DNA from: Peptoanaerobacter stomatis
Lineage (GTDB): Bacteria > Bacillota > Clostridia > Peptostreptococcales > Filifactoraceae
Assembly (NCBI RefSeq): GCF_000238095.2
Contig: NZ_JH815225.1
Location: 1,245,863 to 1,309,862, forward strand
Reading direction: 5' to 3'
DNA length: 64,000 nucleotides
Shown here: piece by piece, positions 10,809-29,581 of the stretch
How the letters are laid out: each line of letters opens with the position of its first letter
Position numbering within the stretch: position 1 is the stretch's first letter
Notes under the pieces: model-generated
The model's input: the letters and a program-made list of their open reading frames with translations, nothing else
What the model was told of the DNA's origin: nothing
Database searches by the model: none
Translations under genes and position numbers: made by a program

Positions 10809-11432
10809 TTAATAATCGTTGTTTATAAGCCCGCTTTTTGATGCTGTAACTGCTAATTCAGTTCGTGAATGAAAGCCTGTCTTATCGAGTAGATTCTGTA
10901 TATGAAAACCTACCGTTCTCTTTGATATATTGAGTTTTTCTCCAATTTCTTCATTGGTGGCTCCATCTATTAACCCTCTTAATATATCTATCTCTCTGTT
11001 GGTAAATTCATTTATTTTGGACATTCCTAAATCAAAATTCGGCAAATTATCCGGATATACGCTCTCCCCGTTTACAGTTTTCTCCATTATTTCCAATATC
11101 TCTTCTTCGTTTGAATTCTTATACCAAAAACTTTCTATTTTTGTTTCTCTCGCTCTTTCTATAAAACTTATTTCAGGTTGGCTTGTTATAATTATTATCT
11201 TTATCTGTGGATAATTTTGTTTAATTTTTGCTGATACATCCAATCCGCTTGCTCCTAAAGCTGTGCATACGTCCATAAGTATCAGATCTATTTTATATTT
11301 TGTACAATACGCTTCTGCAAAAGCAGCACTTTCTATTGAACTTATCAGATTATATTTATCACTGTTTCTTATATATATCTCTAACAATTTTCGAGCCATA
11401 GGATCATTTTCAACAACAAGTACGTTTATCAT
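10809..11432 (-). CDS. LuxR/NarL-type response regulator
   Basis: 207 aa. The receiver domain has acidic residues at D10, the phospho-acceptor Asp54 in LILMDV, Thr83 and Lys105. The C-terminal helix-turn-helix (from FTNREIDILRGL, with NEEIGEKLNISKRTVGFHIQNLL) is the LuxR/GerE type. An upstream in-frame ATG exists at 11453, but AAGGAGG is correctly placed only for the ATG at 11432. It is the last gene of an operon with a histidine kinase and a further membrane sensor. Those genes diverge from the dipeptide epimerase operon, the likely target. Confidence 0.92.
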   Translation of the reverse strand: MINVLVVENDPMARKLLEIYIRNSDKYNLISSIESAAFAEAYCTKYKIDLILMDVCTALGASGLDVSAKIKQNYPQIKIIIITSQPEISFIERARETKIESFWYKNSNEEEILEIMEKTVNGESVYPDNLPNFDLGMSKINEFTNREIDILRGLIDGATNEEIGEKLNISKRTVGFHIQNLLDKTGFHSRTELAVTASKSGLINNDY

Positions 11433-11499
11433 AACATCAGCCTCCTTAAACACCGTCTTTTTTGATATTTATAGAAATATCCATTTTTTTACAAAAAAA

Positions 11500-12786
11500 C
11501 TATATATTGTCTGTAGGTATTTTTATTGTTATTTTAAAAATCGGAATTGATTCTACTTTTATTGTACCTCCAATACGCTCTATTTTTTTTCTCATATTTG
11601 ATAATCCTCCTCTTTCTGTTATAGGATAAGTGGGCTGTATGCCGTCATTTGTAAATATTACCGTATATTTATTCATCTTATACTTTACATCTATATACAT
11701 ATTTTGTGCCTTGGAATGCTTAACTGCATTTGTCAATATTTCACTTGACAAAAGCGTTATCATCTCTTCTACACTTTCATCTTGAAAAGCATCTCCACTT
11801 ACTGTTATATTTACTCCTACGTCTCGTGCAGTTTCCATAAGATATGTCAAAGGAGATTTTTTTTCTATTTCAACTTCATGTCTTAAAATATCTACGCTGT
11901 TTTTCCATATTTCAAATAATTCTTTTATCCTATTATAGTCAATATCTTTTGTAATATAATATTTTGTTCTCAAGAGCACTTGACCAAGTTCATCATGTAT
12001 TCTAATCTTTGTGTTTAGTCTTTCTTCCTGTGCTACAAGATTATTTATATTCTTGGCATATGATTTAAATCTTTTATTTACTTCCACAAGCTCTATGTTT
12101 TCTTTTTTTATTTTATCATATAACTCAGCTGATTCACTTGTATCTGTTGCACTAATCTGTGTTATTTCTCCCATATCAGTGTCTATCTGGTTTTTTACAA
12201 ATGTCCATGTTTTTTGATCGTTTGTTCTTATCAACAAATTATCTCTAAATACAACTCTTTTAACTCCTTCTTTTAGATCGCCACTTTTCAAAGATTTCCA
12301 AAAACTATGCAAATCTTGCGGCATACAGTCTAATATATCTAAGCTCAACTCATACATACATGTGTTTACAAGTAATAAGATTCCATTTTTATCTGCAAAT
12401 AAAAGTCCTTTTGGAAATACGTCTACGCTTTCTTTTATAGAGGATATATTTATTGAACTCTTTTTATACCTAAATATATAATATAGTTTAAAAAAACTGT
12501 AGATTATAAATAAGAGTGCAACAATTATATATATAATGCTCGGCAATTTAGACAATTTTATATATGTAGGACTCAAGTTTCGTTCATTTCGTATATATAA
12601 CATATTGATAATTATAATTATGCTTGCACATGTAACAACAGTTGGGAAAATTATTTTTTTTATATTATTGAGTTGTATGATAACAAATGATATATAATAC
12701 ATCATAATACATATGTTTAAAAACCATAAAGTTAGTATTGTACCTCTTTGTATATCTGTAAGTTCTATAAACGTTACCATAATCAT
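11500..12786 (-). CDS. NarL-partner (HisKA_3) membrane histidine kinase
   Basis: 428 aa. The N-terminal ~110 residues contain three membrane segments. A PAS-like stretch follows (GLLFADKNGILLLVNTCMYE), then a coiled linker and the dimerisation helix with the phospho-acceptor in RIHDELGQVLLRTKYY. The C-terminal ATPase domain has SEILTNAVKHSKAQ (N box) and RGGLSNMRKKIERIGGTI (G box). It should phosphorylate the LuxR-type regulator encoded 67 bases downstream. It begins 3 bases after the stop of the upstream membrane protein, so the two are probably coupled. The signal is unknown. Confidence 0.9.
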   Translation of the reverse strand: MIMVTFIELTDIQRGTILTLWFLNICIMMYYISFVIIQLNNIKKIIFPTVVTCASIIIIINMLYIRNERNLSPTYIKLSKLPSIIYIIVALLFIIYSFFKLYYIFRYKKSSINISSIKESVDVFPKGLLFADKNGILLLVNTCMYELSLDILDCMPQDLHSFWKSLKSGDLKEGVKRVVFRDNLLIRTNDQKTWTFVKNQIDTDMGEITQISATDTSESAELYDKIKKENIELVEVNKRFKSYAKNINNLVAQEERLNTKIRIHDELGQVLLRTKYYITKDIDYNRIKELFEIWKNSVDILRHEVEIEKKSPLTYLMETARDVGVNITVSGDAFQDESVEEMITLLSSEILTNAVKHSKAQNMYIDVKYKMNKYTVIFTNDGIQPTYPITERGGLSNMRKKIERIGGTIKVESIPIFKITIKIPTDNI

Positions 12787-12789
12787 TCC

Positions 12790-14451
12790 TTATTTTAATA
12801 TACACATTGTTATATGCACTTCATTTTCTATATAGTCAAGTGCATAAACACCGCCCATATCTTTAAATTTTTCATTATTCAATACCTGATTTGCATATTC
12901 TTTTAAGGGTATATTGCCCATATTATATACTAATTTCATACTTACATATAAATCATCATTTTTAGAAAAAATATCAACAATAAAATCAGAAAATGTTGAC
13001 AACATACATTCTACAACGTCTTCAAATAAATCATATAAGACTATTATGTGATTTATAGGTATAATTTCATTGCATTCGCTTGTAAACTTACAATTTATAT
13101 TACACTTTGAAATGCTGTCCATAGATTCTCTTATGCAATATTCAAGCTCTTTAGATAAGATATTTTCGTTATCATAGCTAAGTAAAAGTAAATTACATTT
13201 TCTCTTTACATATGCACCTAATATACACAATCTTTTTAAAACTTCAATGTCAGGTTTTGCGTTTTTTTCAAGTATATTATTCATCTTTGCAAGACTTGAT
13301 ATATTTTCACTCATTATTTTTTCAATAATTTTATTTTTCTCTTCTACTCTGCTCTTTCTCTCCTCAAGCTCTATTTCAGCTCTAAGTAAAATATTTCTCT
13401 CTAAAAGCTGTCCTTTTAAAATATTAAGCTTGTCGAGCAATAAATTCATCTTTGATAAATTGTCCAACCATACTACATAACCTGCATCAATAGGCATAGC
13501 ATTTACTTTTATGTTTCTATTCAGCAGTATAGGCTCTTTTATGGCTTCTTTTATATACTTTTTTTCTATATACATATCGGCCTTAGTATTATAGACAGTT
13601 TCATAATACTTATTCAATATTTTTATAGGAAAGTGGCAAGACTTAAAAAGTTCTTCATAATTATCATTGGATTGTATGAGTTTACTCCGTATACAGCTTT
13701 CTATAATCACCATTATGAATAGACAAATTTTGACTGTTACATCACGAATTATCCATAATTGCCCCACATTAACAACATATATAATTATATATATGATAAG
13801 TGTCAGCATAGCGATGTTTGGAAGAATTAATATCTTTTTGTTTGGCAATTTACTTTTTTTTACAGTTATAGATAAAGTTAAAATAGGATAAATTATATTA
13901 AAAAATAAGACTACAAAATACATAATCTCATATTTATAATTTTTGCTCGTCCAAATTTTATTGCTACCGAATGAAAATACAGTTTGATGTATATCATTAG
14001 TAAGCACCAATATACATAATATACACGTCGGTATCCATAAAACTTTTAAATATTCCGGAGGTCTATACCTTTCGGATTTTCCCAAATAAATACCGAAAAA
14101 CAATCCTAATAAAGGTATGAACAACATAGGTATGTAATAACTGTACCACAACATTCTGCGGATAAAATAATCGTCAAAAAAAATCGCTCTCATGGTTCTA
14201 AGTATCATCCAGAAAATCATAAGGATTGTTATGCTTGTTATATAAAAACGAACCGATTTTATAAATATTCGCCTTTTTATAGACTCTTTCCACAAAAATA
14301 TCATACCTATATATATTAGAGGTCTGATAACGTCTGCCGCACTTCTATAAAAAACATTTTCAAAGCTAATATATCTCATAAGCATTGCTAAAATCACAAA
14401 GAACAAAATAATACAATCGTTCCTGAAGACTTTATATTTTTTCGGCATCAT
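12790..14451 (-). CDS. Multi-pass membrane sensor with degenerate kinase-like C-terminus
   Basis: 553 aa, first gene of the sensor operon. The first ~255 residues hold about eight hydrophobic segments and resemble the 7TM input region of some clostridial histidine kinases. Then come a short PAS-like part (NYEELFKSCHFPIKILNKYYETVYN), a charged coiled coil at about 320-375 and a C-terminal ~150 residues with no recognisable phospho-acceptor His in an H-box context and no clear N or G box. It is best read as a pseudokinase or ligand sensor working with the kinase encoded next to it (inference). The exact family is not certain. Confidence 0.6.
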   Translation of the reverse strand: MMPKKYKVFRNDCIILFFVILAMLMRYISFENVFYRSAADVIRPLIYIGMIFLWKESIKRRIFIKSVRFYITSITILMIFWMILRTMRAIFFDDYFIRRMLWYSYYIPMLFIPLLGLFFGIYLGKSERYRPPEYLKVLWIPTCILCILVLTNDIHQTVFSFGSNKIWTSKNYKYEIMYFVVLFFNIIYPILTLSITVKKSKLPNKKILILPNIAMLTLIIYIIIYVVNVGQLWIIRDVTVKICLFIMVIIESCIRSKLIQSNDNYEELFKSCHFPIKILNKYYETVYNTKADMYIEKKYIKEAIKEPILLNRNIKVNAMPIDAGYVVWLDNLSKMNLLLDKLNILKGQLLERNILLRAEIELEERKSRVEEKNKIIEKIMSENISSLAKMNNILEKNAKPDIEVLKRLCILGAYVKRKCNLLLLSYDNENILSKELEYCIRESMDSISKCNINCKFTSECNEIIPINHIIVLYDLFEDVVECMLSTFSDFIVDIFSKNDDLYVSMKLVYNMGNIPLKEYANQVLNNEKFKDMGGVYALDYIENEVHITMCILK

Positions 14452-14484
14452 TACTCCTTCCTTAAAAATTTTATATTTTGTTAA

Positions 14485-14513
14485 ATTATATCATTTTATT
14501 TCCTAAATCTCAA
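14485..14513 (-). promoter_or_regulatory. Promoter of the sensor/kinase/regulator operon
   Basis: Minus strand TTGAGA (14508-14513), 17-base spacer, TATAAT (14485-14490). Transcription would begin near 14478, about 27 bases upstream of the first ATG of the operon, which is preceded by AAGGAAGGAG. Confidence 0.7.
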
Positions 14514-14630
14514 TAATTTTTATAATATATACAACTTATTAATCAATCTTTCATATAATTAATAATATATATCTTAATCATTTTTTAAATTGTTTTACTA
14601 TAATTTCTCACAGTTTTCTCTTAAAAATAA

Positions 14631-14659
14631 TTGCATATTTCTAACAAATTTATTATACT
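14631..14659 (+). promoter_or_regulatory. Candidate promoter of the dipeptide epimerase operon
   Basis: TTGCAT (14631-14636), 17-base spacer, TATACT (14654-14659) on the plus strand. The predicted start near 14666 leaves a leader of about 124 nt before the epimerase ATG. A 23-bp palindrome follows at 14678-14700. Confidence 0.5.
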
Positions 14660-14677
14660 ATATAAAATTAAGTTAAT

Positions 14678-14700
14678 GATAACGTTTTAAAAACATTATC
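14678..14700. promoter_or_regulatory. 23-bp near-palindrome in the divergent spacer, candidate regulator site
   Basis: Half-sites GATAACGTTTT and AAAACATTATC flank one central base and fit GATAAYGTTTT / AAAACRTTATC with a single transition pair mismatched. It lies between the divergent sensor operon and epimerase operon. The local LuxR-type regulator is a plausible ligand, but sites just downstream of a start more often serve repressors. Confidence 0.45.
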
Positions 14701-14789
14701 TTATTTTTAAATCTATTTTCTATATTTATTTCAAATATCGAAATAATTTATATTCTGAAACTTTTATTTTGAAACGAAAGGAGACTACC

Positions 14790-15863
14790 ATGAAAATTAC
14801 AAAAATCGAGATTGAAAAAATTAATATTCCTCTTATTACAACATTTAAAGTAGCTTTTGCAGAAGTATCTGCATCTACATCAGTTATAGTTAAAATTCAT
14901 ACAGATGACGGAATTGTAGGCTATGGCGAAGCGGCTCCTTTTGAACCTGTGACTGGAGAAAGTGCAGACTCTGTGATTTTGGCTTTAAAATATTTTCAAC
15001 AAGCCCTCATAGGTATGGACGCAACTGATTTAGAAGGTATCCATTTACAAATGGACAAACTCTTAATCCATAATACCTCTGCAAAATGTGCTATTGATAT
15101 AGCATTATATGATATAAAGGGTAAAAAAATGAAAATGCCTCTTTATAAGTTACTTGGAGGCTCAAATCCAACAGTAATAAACGATATAACTATTGGTATT
15201 GACACACCTGAAAACATGGCAAAAAAGGCATATGACTATGTAAATATGGGATATAGAATATTAAAAATAAAAATTGGTATTAATCCTAAAGATGATTTAT
15301 CAGCTATCAAATCTATACGCGATAAAGTTGGTTATGATATAAAACTTCGCTTGGATGCTAATCAAGGATATAGTATTTCAACAGCAATTCAATTCATTGA
15401 AGATGTAAAAAAATACAAAATTGATGCTATTGAACAGTTTTTACCTCACTGGAATATTGAAGGTTCTGCAACAATTCGTAAAAACTCACAAGGTATACGA
15501 ATTATGCTTGATGAATCTATTCACTCTCCATATGATGCCGCAAGATCGGCTAAAATAGATGCGGCGGATGTTTTTAATATAAAATTGATGAAATGTGGCG
15601 GATTATTTAATGCTGAAAAAATAAACTCAATAGCTGAAGGATTCGGTATAAATTGTATGGTCGGATGTATGCTGGAAACTAAAATAGCAATAACTGCCGG
15701 AATCAGCCTTGTAGCATCCAAAAACAATATTATAGATGCAGATTGTGACAGCTTTATGTATGCAAAAGATCCTAATATGAATATGACTGGCGGATTTACA
15801 TTTGAAAAAGATATTTTCACTTTATCAGAAAATCCAGGTCTTGGTATAAATTTAGATTGGTAA
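14790..15863 (+). CDS. Dipeptide epimerase (enolase superfamily)
   Basis: 357 aa. It belongs to the muconate-lactonizing-enzyme group of the enolase superfamily, which includes L-Ala-D/L-Glu epimerase. The barrel shows the K-x-K pair in LKIKIG (about residue 162), three metal-binding acids in LRLDANQGY, IEQF and MLDESIHS, the second base in FNIKLMKCGG, and the substrate-selecting D-x-D region DADCDS near the C-terminus. The ATG at 14790 has AAAGGAG; an earlier in-frame ATG at 14769 does not. It should epimerise the second residue of a dipeptide, perhaps from peptidoglycan. Which dipeptide is unknown. Confidence 0.88.
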   Translation: MKITKIEIEKINIPLITTFKVAFAEVSASTSVIVKIHTDDGIVGYGEAAPFEPVTGESADSVILALKYFQQALIGMDATDLEGIHLQMDKLLIHNTSAKCAIDIALYDIKGKKMKMPLYKLLGGSNPTVINDITIGIDTPENMAKKAYDYVNMGYRILKIKIGINPKDDLSAIKSIRDKVGYDIKLRLDANQGYSISTAIQFIEDVKKYKIDAIEQFLPHWNIEGSATIRKNSQGIRIMLDESIHSPYDAARSAKIDAADVFNIKLMKCGGLFNAEKINSIAEGFGINCMVGCMLETKIAITAGISLVASKNNIIDADCDSFMYAKDPNMNMTGGFTFEKDIFTLSENPGLGINLDW

Positions 15864-15893
15864 TATGTTTTTCATTTTTAAGGAGGGAAAATC

Positions 15894-17072
15894 ATGGAAC
15901 AAACTACTTTTTTATCTTCTCCCGGTTCATTAATCGCTCTAATTTTAGGTATTATAGCTTTTTCTCTATGGCTTCAAAAATTTAAAATTACATCTTTGTT
16001 AGGACCATCACTACTCGTTATTATCTTCGGTATAATAGCAAGCAACGCTAAAATAGTACCCAGTATGACTGAATTATATGGAATTTTAGCTGTGTATTGT
16101 ATACCTATCTCCATGTCATTATTTTTGATGAATATAGATTTTTCACAGTTGAAGGATATGACAAAAGAACCTGTTATCTCACTTATTTCAGCCATATTTA
16201 GTGTGGGAGTAATAGCATTTTTATTCGGATTATTTTTTGCAGAAAAAATTCCTGAGGGTTGGAAAGTTGCAGGAATGTTTGTCGGAACTTATACAGGAGG
16301 CTCTTCAAATCTTACTGCCATAGCTATTGCTTTAGATGCTTCAAATGAAACAATAGTATCTGCAAATGCGGCAGATTATGTCATAGGAATGCCGTCTATG
16401 ATATTGATGTTTGCCGCTCCTACTATTTTAAAATCCTCTGCATTTTTCAATAAAATATGGCCGTATAAACATACTGAAGACGAATTATATGGAGACGATC
16501 TTGAACATAAAAGTTTATTTTCTGCAAAAGAATGGTCTATTATGGATATAGCTATACTTTTAACTATTTCTTTTACAATAGCACAAACAGCAAGTTTTAT
16601 TTCAACTACACTTTTCCCTGAAAGCATGTATAAATCTGCTATAAGAATATTGTTCATAACAACTGTTTCCACAATAATAGGACAGCTTCCTTTTATAAAA
16701 ACACTTAAAGGAAAATTAGACCTTGGACTTTTGATAGCTATGATATATCTAACTATTATAGGGTTTATGGTCGATATTTCCGGTTTTTTAACTTCTACTG
16801 CAAGCATTACTATATTTTGTGCTTGTGTTATATTGTTCAGTACACTTCTTCATCTTCTTATTACAAGATTTTTTAAAATACGTTATGAATTTGTTGTTAT
16901 TTCTATTGTTGCAGCAATTGCTGACGGTACTACCGCCGCACTTGTTTGCTCAAATGGTAAATGGAAATCTCTAATACCGATTGCACTTATCAGCGGTGTT
17001 TTAGCCGGACTTATAGGAAACTATTTGGGAATATCGGTAGCATATATGATTAAAGCGACAATAGGCGCATAA
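15894..17072 (+). CDS. DUF819-family membrane protein, likely permease
   Basis: 392 aa with about 11-12 membrane segments, typical of the DUF819 (YjcL-like) family. Visible family features are an N-terminal segment with LLGPSLLVIIFGIIASNA, a glycine-rich FVGTYTGGSSNLTAIAIALD with AADYVIGMP and a C-terminal AAIADGTTAALVCSNGKWK. Its inner-membrane position between an epimerase and a hydrolase of the same operon suggests uptake or export of a peptide or amino acid (inference); no substrate is established. AAGGAGGG precedes the ATG. Confidence 0.85.
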   Translation: MEQTTFLSSPGSLIALILGIIAFSLWLQKFKITSLLGPSLLVIIFGIIASNAKIVPSMTELYGILAVYCIPISMSLFLMNIDFSQLKDMTKEPVISLISAIFSVGVIAFLFGLFFAEKIPEGWKVAGMFVGTYTGGSSNLTAIAIALDASNETIVSANAADYVIGMPSMILMFAAPTILKSSAFFNKIWPYKHTEDELYGDDLEHKSLFSAKEWSIMDIAILLTISFTIAQTASFISTTLFPESMYKSAIRILFITTVSTIIGQLPFIKTLKGKLDLGLLIAMIYLTIIGFMVDISGFLTSTASITIFCACVILFSTLLHLLITRFFKIRYEFVVISIVAAIADGTTAALVCSNGKWKSLIPIALISGVLAGLIGNYLGISVAYMIKATIGA

Positions 17073-17090
17073 TAGAAAGAAGGAATTTTT

Positions 17091-19145
17091 ATGCAATGGA
17101 ACCTTTATTCTTCAGGTATTTGTCAAGCTAAAATTTATGTACAGGATATAATTTATTTTGAAATGTTTAACCCTTTTTCAAAAGATTTTTATACAAAGAA
17201 AATATTGGATGAAGATGAAAACAAAAAATTTAAAGAAAATTTTAGAATAGATATTCTCTCTTTTTTAGAAAAATATATAAATCTTTCATATACAAGTTAT
17301 CTACAAAAAAATGAATTCACTTATAAAAATGGTGACATTTATTCAAAAACGAAAAACGGTTTTGCTGAGAGAAACAAAATTCATCCACATAATATCATAA
17401 TGCACGAAAATGAAATAATAGCATGCTGGATTCCGGCAAGAAGCAGTAATGTATTTCTTGTTAAGGATGGTTTTGAAAGTTATACAATACTTGACAAATG
17501 GAAAAAATATGCTCCACAATTACAAGCTATCAGCCATAAAAAAAATTACTGCATACCTATGCGAGACGGCATAAAACTTTCAACCGATGTATATCTTCCA
17601 CTTGAATATAATGATACTCTCCCTACGGTTTTGGTTCGTACACCATATGATAAAACTATAAAAATACATGAATTTATTAAGTATGTTCATCGTGGTTATG
17701 CTGTTGTTATACAGGATGTTAGAGGCAGAAGCGAAAGTGATGGCGAATGGATACCTTTACATCACGAAGTTGAAGATGGAGATGACACTTTAAACTGGAT
17801 AGCAAGTCAAAAATGGAGTAATAAAAAAATAGGAATGATAGGTGGCAGTTATCTCGGATACGTTCAATGGGCTGCAGGTGCAAGTGCAAACCCATATCTA
17901 AAAGCTATAGTCAGCGAAGTTACCGCAGGCAGTGCTTTTATAGATATGCCAAGACGTGGAGGTTGTCTAATAAGCGGAATGTTGGCATGGGCATTTATCG
18001 TTTCAAAGAAAAATCTGGATGCAAGCTTGCTTGCAAGAGATGATTGGGATGAAGTTTTAGCAGTACGACCTATTGAAGATATTCCCAAAAAAGCTCTCGG
18101 ATATGATATACCTTTCTTCAACAAATGGATAAATCATGATGTAGAAGATGCTTTTTGGCAAAAAGGAGATTGGCAAAAACGTTGGAAAAGCGGTCATCAA
18201 ATTCCATCTTTAATAATATCAGGTTGGTTTGACGATAATTCTATGGGAACAACTCAAGCACTTGAAGTATCCAAAAACTTTAAAGATAAAAAAATAATCC
18301 TCGGACCTTGGCTTCATAATTCAAATTCTTCTTATGATTTGAATGACTTACATTTTGGTCAAAATGCTTTAAAAGATGATCTTGACTTAATACCTCTGCT
18401 TTGGTTTGAAAAATATTTAAAAGGCAACAATCTATCTTATCTGAATGATGATGTAATAGAATACTACACAACCGGAAGTAACGAGTGGAAAAAAGCTAAT
18501 AGTTGGCCAATTCCTAACTCTATAGAAAAAAAATACTATTTATATTCTATTTCAAACGCAAAATCTTCAAATGGCGATGGAATTCTTTTGGATGAAATAC
18601 CTGAAAGCGGATATGATTTTTACAAATACAACCCTGATAATCCTGCCACACATTTGATTGATATGTCAAATAACGAGGTTTCATTTCCTGCAAATTATAA
18701 AAATCAAGAACTTAGAGATGACTACCTTTGCTATACAACACCTGTTTTAAAAGAAGATGTTATAATAACCGGAGATATTGAACTGACTCTATACTTTGAA
18801 AGTGACTGCATTGAATCAGATTTGATAATACGCATATGCAATGTTGATGAATTCGGTAATTCCATAAAGCTTGCAGACGGAGTGTTCAACACAAAATATA
18901 AAAACGGTTATGACAAAAAAGAAAATATGATAAAAGGAAATATTTATCCTATTAGCATAAGAAGTACAAAATTTTCACACTGCTTTAAAAAAGGAAATCG
19001 TATAAGACTAAGCATAACCTCAAGTGCATTAAATTTGATTTTCCCTAATTATAACAGCGGAACAAATGAGAAAAAAATCGTAACCAACAAAGTACATTAT
19101 GGGAAAATTTATCCTTCCAATTTAAAAGTAAGAATTGAAAAATAA
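17091..19145 (+). CDS. CocE/NonD-family alpha/beta hydrolase (X-Pro dipeptidyl-peptidase type)
   Basis: 684 aa. After an unrecognised N-terminal region of about 150 residues comes the S15/CocE fold starting at NYCIPMRDGIKLSTDVYLP. The nucleophile elbow is GMIGGSYLGYVQWAAG. The acid probably lies in SGWFDDNSMGT and the His in LGPWLHNSN. The C-terminal ~200 residues form the jelly-roll domain usual for this family. No signal peptide is apparent, so it acts in the cytoplasm. In an operon with a dipeptide epimerase and permease, a peptidase or acyl-peptide hydrolase role is more likely than cocaine-type esterase (inference). AAGAAGGA precedes the ATG. Confidence 0.85.
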   Translation: MQWNLYSSGICQAKIYVQDIIYFEMFNPFSKDFYTKKILDEDENKKFKENFRIDILSFLEKYINLSYTSYLQKNEFTYKNGDIYSKTKNGFAERNKIHPHNIIMHENEIIACWIPARSSNVFLVKDGFESYTILDKWKKYAPQLQAISHKKNYCIPMRDGIKLSTDVYLPLEYNDTLPTVLVRTPYDKTIKIHEFIKYVHRGYAVVIQDVRGRSESDGEWIPLHHEVEDGDDTLNWIASQKWSNKKIGMIGGSYLGYVQWAAGASANPYLKAIVSEVTAGSAFIDMPRRGGCLISGMLAWAFIVSKKNLDASLLARDDWDEVLAVRPIEDIPKKALGYDIPFFNKWINHDVEDAFWQKGDWQKRWKSGHQIPSLIISGWFDDNSMGTTQALEVSKNFKDKKIILGPWLHNSNSSYDLNDLHFGQNALKDDLDLIPLLWFEKYLKGNNLSYLNDDVIEYYTTGSNEWKKANSWPIPNSIEKKYYLYSISNAKSSNGDGILLDEIPESGYDFYKYNPDNPATHLIDMSNNEVSFPANYKNQELRDDYLCYTTPVLKEDVIITGDIELTLYFESDCIESDLIIRICNVDEFGNSIKLADGVFNTKYKNGYDKKENMIKGNIYPISIRSTKFSHCFKKGNRIRLSITSSALNLIFPNYNSGTNEKKIVTNKVHYGKIYPSNLKVRIEK

Positions 19146-19315: not shown

Positions 19316-20959
19316 CTATTTGCTTAATGTAACTGTCTTAGTAGAAGCATCCCATGCTGTTTTTACATTTAAAGCATTTGCTATTTGAGCTACCGGTAAG
19401 AATGTTCTTGCGTCTTTTATTTCAGGTGCTGAATCAAGCGCAACTTCTTTGCCATTTACAAGCATAGTCTTATTTCCTATTGTAAGAACTACTGTTTGAG
19501 TATTATCTTTTGAGTTAAGTGTAGCTGTGCTTGTTTTAGCGTCCCATTTAACTTCCATATCCAATGTTTCAGCTACTGCTCTTAGCGGTAACATAGTTCT
19601 GTTTCCTTTTGCTATATATGGTGCTACATCTAATGTTTTTTGCTCTGTATTGCCATCTTTAGTCACTTTATATTCTGCACTTCCTATAACAAATTCTATA
19701 CCGTTTGATACAGGTGTTTTAACTGTTTCAGGTGCTACTGCATTTACATTGAACAATGTTACTTTTGCTATTATATCATCAGGAGTTTTTGCATTGGCAA
19801 GCGAAAGTGTATAGTCTCCTTCATATCCAAACCTGTCTATTGTAAATTTTAAGTCGCTAAATGTCAATTTTGAAGGTTCAGTTGATGCTCCGCTTACTTT
19901 AAATAGAATTGTACCATTTTTAACATCTGCTGAGCCTACCTTAATATTGCCTTCCGCTTCTAATTTTACTGATGAAAATACTGAACCTTTATACTTAGGA
20001 TCTAATTTTAGTATATATTCGCCTTCTGACAATGCTCCTGCTGATGTTTCAACAAATGATAAATCAGCTAATTTTTGATTTCCCAAGCCTAATGTTATGC
20101 TGTCAGGTTTTCTCTCATCAACATTTATTGCATCATATACTTTTGCAACTACTGATGACATATTTTCAATGCCTCTACCATCAAATGTTGCTGTTATATC
20201 TCCTACAAAGTCTTTTTTAGGCATTATATTCAATTTTATTACAAATTTATTTATATTGGATGAATTTTCTGTCAATTTAAATTCTGCGTAATTTTCTTTT
20301 ACTGCACTTATTTCTAATTTATCTCTTCCGTTTAATTGCTCTATTTTTACACTTTTTTCATCTACTGTTGCATTGTCGAAGGATAAGTCATATGGAGAAC
20401 CCGGAAGTATTGAATCTTGTACAGCCTCTGTTACAGTTATTTCAACAGGAATAGATTTTGAATTTTTAGGTGCTCTTTCATATGATGATGAAATATTTAC
20501 ACCGTAATCGCTTATTTTTGCTATTACTACGCTTTCATCTTTATCTCCTGATACTCCTCTTGATATAATCACAGAGATATCGCCTTTTTCTGCATGCTTG
20601 TCAACATCAAAATATGGCACTACATACGCAACTTCCTGATATTTAGGATTTGTTTTCATAGTTATTTTAAGCGAATTTCCATCTATTTGTGGTTTGTTAT
20701 GTCCATTGACAATAGTTTTTGCGTTCCATTTTACATTTGTAGGTAACTTCAATTCAAATGTAACTGAATCTCCCCAAGAATCCTTTTCGCTTTCTCTTAT
20801 TTCAATCATAGAGCCTTTTTGTTCATCTAATGCACCCACTGTTTGAACTTTGTCAACCTTTACTGTCTTTGAACCTTCTGCAAAAGAATTTACACCAAAA
20901 GCTGAAACCAACAACGCCATAGCTGTCATTCCTACAAAAAATTTTTTCATACTTTTCAT
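19316..20959 (-). CDS. Secreted protein with C-terminal copper-amine-oxidase-like domain
   Basis: 547 aa. The N-terminus (MKSMKKFFVGMTAMALL, then VSAFGVNSFAEG) is a signal peptide. The middle ~400 residues are beta-rich and not recognised, possibly two related segments. The last ~110 residues carry the copper amine oxidase N-domain-like module: NRTMLPLRAVAETL and ARTFLPVAQIANAL, each followed by V-x-W-D-A, typical of clostridial surface proteins. Despite the name no enzyme activity is implied; the module is thought to act in cell-surface attachment or display. It is monocistronic. Confidence 0.85.
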   Translation of the reverse strand: MKSMKKFFVGMTAMALLVSAFGVNSFAEGSKTVKVDKVQTVGALDEQKGSMIEIRESEKDSWGDSVTFELKLPTNVKWNAKTIVNGHNKPQIDGNSLKITMKTNPKYQEVAYVVPYFDVDKHAEKGDISVIISRGVSGDKDESVVIAKISDYGVNISSSYERAPKNSKSIPVEITVTEAVQDSILPGSPYDLSFDNATVDEKSVKIEQLNGRDKLEISAVKENYAEFKLTENSSNINKFVIKLNIMPKKDFVGDITATFDGRGIENMSSVVAKVYDAINVDERKPDSITLGLGNQKLADLSFVETSAGALSEGEYILKLDPKYKGSVFSSVKLEAEGNIKVGSADVKNGTILFKVSGASTEPSKLTFSDLKFTIDRFGYEGDYTLSLANAKTPDDIIAKVTLFNVNAVAPETVKTPVSNGIEFVIGSAEYKVTKDGNTEQKTLDVAPYIAKGNRTMLPLRAVAETLDMEVKWDAKTSTATLNSKDNTQTVVLTIGNKTMLVNGKEVALDSAPEIKDARTFLPVAQIANALNVKTAWDASTKTVTLSK

Positions 20960-28544: not shown

Positions 28545-29093
28545 TTAAAATATGGACTTTATCCACTCTCTTCTTGTGATACTTTTTACCATATCTTTTG
28601 TTAATAAATTTATTGTGTCACATAATCTGTCTACTACTTCATTTAGTGTTCTAAATACTTCATTTTTGAATCCCATCTGACGAATTTGTTTCCATATTTG
28701 CTCTATGGGATTCATCTCTGGTGTATATGGTGGTATATGTGTTATCTTTATGTTTTGAGGTATTTTTAATGTCTTTGATTTGTGCCATATTGCCCCATCA
28801 CATACTAATAATATTATATCTTCTTTATATTCTTTCGATAATTCTTCTAAAAATACGTTCATATTATTTGTATCACAGTATGGCATTACTAAAAAGAAGT
28901 TTTCTCCTGTTTGTGGTTCTACTGCTCCATATGCGTATTTATATTCTCTTATGTGATGACATGGTACCTCCGCTCTTACATCCTTTGTGCACCAACAATA
29001 CTTTGGTTTGCTTATCCTTCCAAAACCTGCTTCATCTTGAAACATTATTCTTACTATTTTATCAGGGTAAACGTTTAATAACTCTTCTGCCAT
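28545..29093 (-). CDS. IS630 transposase, catalytic (DDE) part
   Basis: 182 aa from the internal ATG. It carries the DDE catalytic core: the first acid in IMFQDEAGFGRISKPKYCW, the second in LLVCDGAIWHKSK, and the last in IPPYTPEMNPIEQIWKQIR, the typical IS630 ending. Its natural product is probably a fusion with the upstream DNA-binding frame through a -1 shift at the A7 run (29102-29108). The frame continues upstream of its ATG without a stop as far as the shift site, and no ribosome binding site precedes that ATG. The stop lies inside the left terminal repeat. Confidence 0.88.
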   Translation of the reverse strand: MAEELLNVYPDKIVRIMFQDEAGFGRISKPKYCWCTKDVRAEVPCHHIREYKYAYGAVEPQTGENFFLVMPYCDTNNMNVFLEELSKEYKEDIILLVCDGAIWHKSKTLKIPQNIKITHIPPYTPEMNPIEQIWKQIRQMGFKNEVFRTLNEVVDRLCDTINLLTKDMVKSITRREWIKSIF

Positions 29094-29581
29094 ACTGTTA
29101 ATTTTTTTGAGGCTTCTATTACCTCTTGATTTGCTTTCTTCGGATGTCTACTTCTTGGCATTACTTTTCTCCACCCATGTCTTTTTAGAACATAGTATAT
29201 TTGTGCTGTTCCTATACTATGTCCTACTATTTTTACATATTCTTCTTCTATTTCTTTGACTGTTATTATCTGTCCTTTTTTGCCTTTTTCTTCAAATTTT
29301 TTTAACATTTCTTCTTCTTGCTCAAATGTTAGATTTCTATGATTTCCTTTTTGCCCCTTGCTTAAAAGTCCTTCTATTCCTTCTTTTACGTATTTGCATA
29401 TCCAGTTATTTACTACTTTAATTGAGGTATCAAGTTTTTCAGCTATTTCTTTATTACTTTTCCCTTGTCCTCTTAATTGTATAGCATGTAGTCTTTTATC
29501 TTCTTTTTTATCTTTAATTGTATTTCTCATTTCGCTTATTTTTTTCGCTTCTTCTATACTAATTTTATGCATTTTTTTCAC
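29075..29581 (-). CDS. IS630 transposase, DNA-binding part (frame A)
   Basis: 168 aa. The N-terminal helix-turn-helix region (LRGQGKSNKEIAEKLDTSIKVVNNWI) is followed by a second winged HTH (KEIEEEYVKIVGHSIGTAQI, then YVLKRHGWRKVMPRSRHPKK), the standard paired DNA-binding region of IS630. Translated alone it ends 19 bases into the downstream frame. On the minus strand the mRNA has A-AAA-AAA in the zero frame (complement of the Ts at 29102-29108). Slipping back one base there yields the continuous transposase. Confidence 0.88.
   Translation of the reverse strand: MKKMHKISIEEAKKISEMRNTIKDKKEDKRLHAIQLRGQGKSNKEIAEKLDTSIKVVNNWICKYVKEGIEGLLSKGQKGNHRNLTFEQEEEMLKKFEEKGKKGQIITVKEIEEEYVKIVGHSIGTAQIYYVLKRHGWRKVMPRSRHPKKANQEVIEASKKLTVWQKSY

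Follow-up and report, generated by a model that had tools for sequence, protein, structure and literature searches.

Two head-to-head gene sets in Peptoanaerobacter stomatis, a putative dipeptide operon and a pseudokinase-containing sensor cassette, are probably independent modules

Introduction

Dipeptide epimerases of the enolase superfamily rely on a KxK motif and an opposing lysine for catalysis, on an Asp/Glu/Asp set of metal ligands and on a DxD motif for binding the amino group of the dipeptide; in the Ala-Glu epimerase (AEE), an arginine near residue 24 serves the Glu side chain of the substrate, and the ykf-type operon of Bacillus subtilis is thought to recycle Ala-Glu dipeptides of peptidoglycan. 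The dipeptide epimerases are covered by Lukk et al. 2012, as cited in PMC13338154. Here we examine a locus of Peptoanaerobacter stomatis at which genes for a dipeptide epimerase, a DUF819 membrane protein and a CocE-like serine hydrolase (module A) stand head to head with genes for a seven-transmembrane (7TM) sensor pseudokinase, a histidine kinase and a LuxR-type response regulator (module B). The locus lies on contig NZ_JH815225.1 within a 64,000-nt stretch, hereafter the window, and all coordinates are window positions.

The remaining products also have described relatives. Cocaine esterase CocE and the alpha-amino acid ester hydrolases have the same hydrolase core and catalytic triad as the window hydrolase, which differs from them in about 144 extra N-terminal residues and in its operon context. 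The DUF819 family has been placed by modelling in the CPA/AT superfamily (PMC8396727), and the elevator carriers CitS and AspT of this superfamily have the whole-chain fold in common with the modelled DUF819 protein at an identity of only 11-14%. In Neisseria meningitidis, an M15 peptidase gene is reported to adjoin a DUF819 gene (PMC12671195). By the description given in PMC12675982, the FasB/FasC/FasA system of group A Streptococcus consists, like module B, of two sensor-kinase-like proteins and one regulator, and two-hybrid data support hetero-association of FasB and FasC; these have six transmembrane (TM) segments each, whereas module B has a 7TM pseudokinase, a PAS-like part and a LuxR-type regulator. 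The open-licence literature that names HisKA_7TM is archaeal.

In that open-licence literature, with DUF819 papers taken by title or start of abstract, we found no description of an epimerase-DUF819-CocE operon and no assigned substrate for any DUF819 protein, and nothing on a dipeptide epimerase in Clostridioides difficile or on one paired with CocE. Both modules are of known kinds, each in a variant for which we found no description there.

Results

The two gene sets are each conserved and occur apart

An earlier note on this DNA had proposed that the six genes act as one system, with the sensor and kinase genes switching on uptake, epimerisation and cleavage of a peptide. Our comparison with relatives indicates that they are probably two independent modules. 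To define module A we scanned contigs with a DUF819 alignment, took the best 80 of 139 relatives and sought neighbours within 4.5 kb; 65 of these loci extend by more than 2.5 kb to each side, and some end at a contig edge. Epimerase, DUF819 and CocE form a conserved, widespread operon, with an epimerase in 57/80 of these best loci, CocE in 59/80 and both in 55/80. Loci with an epimerase include those of C. difficile (L126), Faecalibacterium (L127), Robinsoniella (L118), Lacrimispora (L130) and Oceanobacillus (L174), as well as a Treponema locus (L161) that is cut by a contig end; DUF819 loci of Facklamia and several Lachnospiraceae are among those lacking one. Within the order, the close DUF819 clade (at least 44% identity, own genome included) occurs in 18/297 genomes and any DUF819 match at E 1e-10 in 75/297. 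We inspected 15 of the 17 close matches outside the own genome and observed an epimerase match in 15/15 (35% identity in L071, 41-59% elsewhere), a CocE gene in 14/15 and a divergent protein of 186-198 aa at the operon head in 11/15. The gene order in one locus (L067) is DUF819-epimerase-CocE. The gene content fits the uptake, epimerisation and cleavage operon of the earlier note; it is the joining of this operon to the sensor genes that finds no support.

Module B is likewise a common cassette on its own. The sensor was found in 32/297 genomes of the order and in 27 of a class sample of 391 genomes (E 1e-20); the kinase gene adjoins it in 28/29 sensor loci, the remaining locus ending at a contig edge, and the regulator gene lies within 4 kb in 23/29.

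None of the 80 DUF819 loci holds a match to the sensor, kinase or regulator at E 1e-6. Conversely, the 29 sensor loci are free of matches to epimerase, DUF819 and CocE, and one of them (L022) has an XRE-cupin match only. Both modules occur in 2/297 genomes of the order (G000 and G286), the chance expectation being 32 x 18 / 297 = 1.9, and in G286 the sensor and the DUF819 clade are on different contigs. In the class sample, the close DUF819 clade occurs in 7 genomes (E 1e-90), and the own genome is the only one with both. Two congeners (G007 and G008) carry the sensor and have no DUF819 or epimerase match; neither shows same-place synteny, the orthologues of the flanking genes having other neighbours. 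The sampling took in 3 genomes from the genus and 11 from the family, counting the own genome, and within it the adjacency was seen here alone. A conserved joint system is excluded for the samples taken (0/80, 0/29, and the order and class genomes); the neighbourhood comparison that had been suggested as a check on the six-gene proposal was run, and the two operons do not co-occur in the relatives sampled.

By profile and residues, the sensor is a degenerate relative of its partner kinase

The description of the 553-aa protein as a membrane pseudokinase-like sensor was strengthened, and the proposed division of labor in which only the kinase keeps the phospho-acceptor was supported. Profile-profile comparison of the sensor family with the kinase family gave a probability of 97.2 (E 4.2e-11) over 344 columns and aligned sensor Ile376 to kinase His264. 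This phospho-acceptor column holds His in 22/23 kinases, and in the 24 sensors Tyr (18), Phe (2), His (1), Ile (1), Ala (1) or Leu (1). The N-box column of kinase Asn353 is Asn in 23/23 and the window kinase keeps its GGL box; across residues 468-485, the 24 aligned sensors have no conserved Asn, and 0/24 family members match HATPase_c at E 0.01. Because the profile match is combined with loss of the His, the Asn and HATPase_c, we read the sensor from its sequence as a 7TM pseudokinase whose degenerate PAS-DHp-HATPase half is related to the partner kinase. A search with the sensor profile turned up no solved structure as a relative (best E 0.5). For the kinase family profile the best solved relative is DesK, and HisKA_3, which had been assigned to the kinase, is not among its Pfam matches at E 0.1.

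The window kinase has three TM helices predicted from hydrophobicity and a PAS-like part. In 4/23 cassettes the kinase lacks any predicted TM helix, which suggests that the 7TM pseudokinase is the sensing, membrane subunit and acts through a complex with the kinase. The pseudokinase would detect the signal and, by way of the cytoplasmic half that is homologous between the two proteins, pair with the PAS histidine kinase; the pair would thereby set phosphorylation of the LuxR-type regulator. Such a hetero-complex is put forward by analogy with FasB/FasC. The regulator keeps its phospho-Asp 61 and carries Asn16 (numbering of the 214-aa open reading frame (ORF)) where 21/21 other aligned regulators have Asp, a substitution that may weaken phosphorylation.

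Several further observations concern this cassette. The genes for TM-less kinases in L097, L099, L100 and L102 lie directly behind the 7TM pseudokinase gene. Longer sensor homologues of 823-832 aa, with an exported-looking extra N-terminal region, are encoded at L018 2240-4738, L019 9509-11983, L020 8284-10755 and L115 10249-12729; the L018 and L019 proteins show a weak SBP_bac_6 match under the Pfam cut-off, so that in some lineages the 7TM pseudokinase may carry a fused solute-binding-like domain. By eye the cassette seemed to accompany secreted surface proteins, an idea that we dropped after a crude signal-peptide test (14/97 near versus 15/128 far genes, P 0.55).

Many relatives of module A face an XRE-cupin regulator

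An XRE-cupin match lies near 38 of the 57 epimerase operons among the 80 DUF819 loci. In C. difficile (L126) and Robinsoniella (L118), three homologous genes in the same order as in the window face a divergent XRE-cupin gene at the place where the window has the sensor cassette. The divergent protein of L057 was tested and consists of helix-turn-helix and cupin parts, and the others of the 11 order-level proteins resemble it by eye. Upstream of the epimerase, the dyad TTTTA-N7-TAAAA occurs in 15/32 loci with a divergent regulator (at most 4 in 30 shuffles, which kept base composition only) and sits within the longer word TTTTAnAAATAGTAAAAT. The word TAGTAAAAT is present in 26/34 operons with a divergent XRE-cupin regulator and in 1/22 without. 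These counts are not independent, since some of the 32-34 upstream regions come from closely related genomes (several of C. difficile type and of Gemmiger/Faecalibacterium type). We regard TAGTAAAAT as an operator candidate for the XRE-cupin neighbour of the epimerase operon.

The window locus has no XRE-cupin gene, and the own genome (97.4% complete) gave no match at E 0.001; at a looser limit the best match was E 0.03 over 54 residues of helix-turn-helix. A control search gave 100% in the source genome of the query and 42-45% in three others. Of the congeners, G007 reached no better than E 4.5e-4, on a short stretch, and G008 gave no match. TAGTAAAAT is absent from both strands of the window intergenic region, where the best whole-site score for the XRE-cupin motif was 5.8, lower than the average of 6.4 in 200 shuffles. 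A nine-base half of the word, ATAGTAAAA, does occur on the minus strand at 14593-14601, as it did on either strand in 120/2000 shuffles. Relatives with a divergent regulator have it on the plus strand, opposite to the window, in 27/34 and on the minus strand in 1/34, and the reversed copy could be a remnant of old control or chance.

The intergenic DNA is about 16% G+C. Promoter-like sites over the whole region number 80, and shuffles give 78.2 (standard deviation 7.7). Leaving aside 20 weaker sites, the best match on the epimerase side is 9/12. On these two results, a recognisable promoter for each operon is not established. The best inverted repeat found (14663-14709) was equalled or bettered in 26/100 shuffles, so that the palindrome reported between the operons is no more than chance would give. 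Nor did a search of 20 sensor-gene upstream regions, which has low power, yield a common regulator box above shuffles, the best inverted dyad occurring in 2 regions where shuffles reach 2-3.

Readings of the adjacency

On balance we favor, by somewhat more than an even judgment, the reading that chance brought the modules together on a variable stretch, neither affecting the other. In keeping with it, the place is not conserved in either congener, their flanking orthologues having other neighbours and their genomes no epimerase or DUF819 match, and the order-level co-occurrence equals chance. Against it, divergent regulator-operon pairs are a widespread functional layout.

That module B controls module A in this species is a minority view, but one to be taken seriously. 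It would follow most directly if the three-component cassette had taken the dipeptide operon over from an XRE-cupin regulator and now sensed the dipeptide or a related outside signal, a course of events that we consider tentative. Such a replacement is possible because the own genome gives no XRE-cupin match at E 0.001, although the same search succeeds in four other genomes, and it would agree with the divergent arrangement around a 338-bp region common to both operons, with the absence of the full XRE-cupin word from that region and with the split between sensor and kinase that the first reading of the locus had proposed. The absence of an XRE-cupin gene means little by itself, since 22/56 epimerase operons have no divergent XRE-cupin match. 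The replacement is, moreover, unseen in the 80 and 29 other loci; it has no significant palindrome or shared sensor-upstream dyad to draw on, Asn16 of the regulator may blunt its phosphorylation, and the reversed ATAGTAAAA still stands upstream of the epimerase.

Three points weigh against our reading of the locus as two independent modules of these kinds. The operons diverge across 338 bp and no XRE-cupin gene turned up, as would be expected had the regulator been replaced; the arrangement could be kept in close relatives beyond the 3 genus and 11 family genomes sampled; and for module A, predicted fold and neighbourhood are the grounds for both transport and the CocE step.

The most detailed version of a replacement, in which the 7TM pseudokinase/kinase/LuxR cassette displaced the XRE-cupin regulator and the dead kinase senses an outside dipeptide, perhaps with an aromatic or D-residue, before DUF819 uptake, epimerisation and cleavage, we judge unlikely.

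Module A has the makings of a dipeptide pathway other than Ala-Glu recycling

Among solved structures, the window epimerase is closest to the dipeptide epimerase 3jva (E 1.1e-81), and the B. subtilis Ala-Glu epimerase 1jpm ranks behind it (E 2.7e-70). The window enzyme has the same catalytic lysines, metal ligand set and DxD motif as 3jva: K158, K160, K264, D188, E214 and D240 are kept in 23/23 aligned orthologues, as are D317 and D319, which align to the D-L-D of 3jva. It differs from known dipeptide epimerases in sharing an operon with DUF819 and CocE and in lacking the Ala-Glu-type arginine, the position of which is held by Ala23 in the window and by Gly, Ala, Thr or Ser across the 23 aligned epimerases. 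Since Arg is never found there (0/23), peptidoglycan Ala-Glu is an unlikely substrate, and a peptidoglycan origin of the substrate, raised in the earlier note, is disfavoured for this enzyme. Although the epimerase belongs to the same subgroup as 1jpm, recycling of such dipeptides by module A in the manner proposed for the ykf-type operon is highly improbable, given also a score of 206.9 bits against the NCBIfam Ala-Glu epimerase model (cut-off 500) and the location of an 'ALR'-keeping family relative (L211) in a different operon, beside peptidase genes and an ABC transporter that looks Opp-type by eye. The 35% epimerase relative in L071 also has 'ALR' at the AEE-arginine position.

The DUF819 protein was modelled with a mean predicted local distance difference test (pLDDT) score of 90.7, and the model superposes on CitS (Z 25.1, root-mean-square deviation (rmsd) 4.7, 348 aligned) and on AspT (Z 24.0, rmsd 4.3, 351 aligned), so that its predicted fold is that of an elevator carrier of the CPA/AT type. 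The model of the CocE-like protein (mean pLDDT 88.7) matches cocaine esterase over residues 145-684 (Z 40.6, rmsd 2.6, 531 aligned), and its extra N-terminal part is mostly confidently modelled. The triad Ser253, Asp381 and His409 is kept in 32/32 CocE-like proteins.

When the neighbours of 29 loci were read by product, an M19 membrane dipeptidase was seen to adjoin DUF819 at L071, L189, L193 and L195. Two of these (L189 and L193) have CocE and no epimerase match within 4.5 kb, with just 1.3 kb available upstream in L193; L195 encodes nothing closer than a distant epimerase-like protein (24%), and CocE is missing from L071. Because L189, L193 and L195 are dipeptidase loci without a close epimerase, dipeptidase and epimerase may be alternatives to each other. 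Together, the epimerase, dipeptidase and peptidase neighbours point to a dipeptide substrate. From fold and neighbourhood we propose that the DUF819 carrier would bring a dipeptide, or small peptide, into the cell, that the epimerase would invert the configuration of its C-terminal residue and that the CocE-like serine hydrolase would cleave the epimerised product in the cytoplasm; substrate class, transport and order of steps are all inferred in this way.

Two side observations concern other DUF819 and epimerase loci. An M42 aminopeptidase (Pfam) adjoins DUF819 at L162 6300-7343, a locus without epimerase, and L158, L164, L172 and L179 look alike by eye. In Clostridioides-like genomes, a 5-oxoprolinase-like cluster precedes the epimerase operon (L063 3478-7249); its one tested member is a 331-aa CT_A_B protein, and the run is similar by length in L060-L065.

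Locus layout and gene calls

The six ORFs, with the order, strands and sizes that had been claimed for them, were borne out by the ORF list (Table 1). For the epimerase, ATG 14790 is the more likely start than TTG 14769, with AAAGGAG at 14777-14783 preceding it, and the regulator probably starts at ATG 11432, judging from the ORF translation.

Table 1. Features of the two modules and of the DNA between them (window positions).
Feature	Position	Strand	Support
LuxR/NarL-type response regulator	10809..11432, ORF to 11453	-	Pfam Response_reg + GerE
PAS-like histidine kinase, 428 aa	11500..12786	-	Pfam HATPase_c
7TM sensor pseudokinase (predicted), 553 aa	12790..14451	-	Pfam HisKA_7TM
AT-rich intergenic region between both operons	14452..14789		338 bp
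Sigma-70-like promoter candidate, sensor operon	14513-14485	-	TTGAGA-17-TATAAT, TG before second hexamer, 11/12 match
Dipeptide epimerase, enolase superfamily, not Ala-Glu type	14790..15863	+	Pfam MR_MLE N and C
DUF819 membrane protein, predicted elevator-type carrier fold	15894..17072	+	PF05684 125.3 bits, cut-off 27
CocE/NonD-type serine hydrolase	17091..19145	+	Peptidase_S15 + PepX_C; TIGR00976 (CocE_NonD) 310.2 bits, cut-off 66.3

Base composition gave no signal of foreign origin, the operon genes having 32-33% G+C and the compared stretches 29-34%. Elsewhere in the window, overlapping DDE_3 and helix-turn-helix ORFs at 28545-29581 (minus strand) resemble a single transposase split by a frame change. 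A Cu_amine_oxidN1 protein, exported-looking by eye, is encoded at 19316-20959 (minus strand); the own genome has 8 such matches and the two congeners 10 each.

Discussion

The adjacency seen here is a candidate case of regulator replacement, at the tentative level given above. The sensor cassette offers natural pseudokinase-kinase pairs, among them the four with predicted membrane helices in the pseudokinase alone, that could serve to study how an inactive kinase governs an active one. The role of the DUF819 protein as a dipeptide carrier is proposed from its modelled fold and its neighbourhood, and if true, DUF819 would be the first CPA/AT-fold protein to carry a dipeptide. The operon of module A thereby provides a testable substrate hypothesis for the DUF819 carriers of gut Firmicutes, including C. 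difficile.

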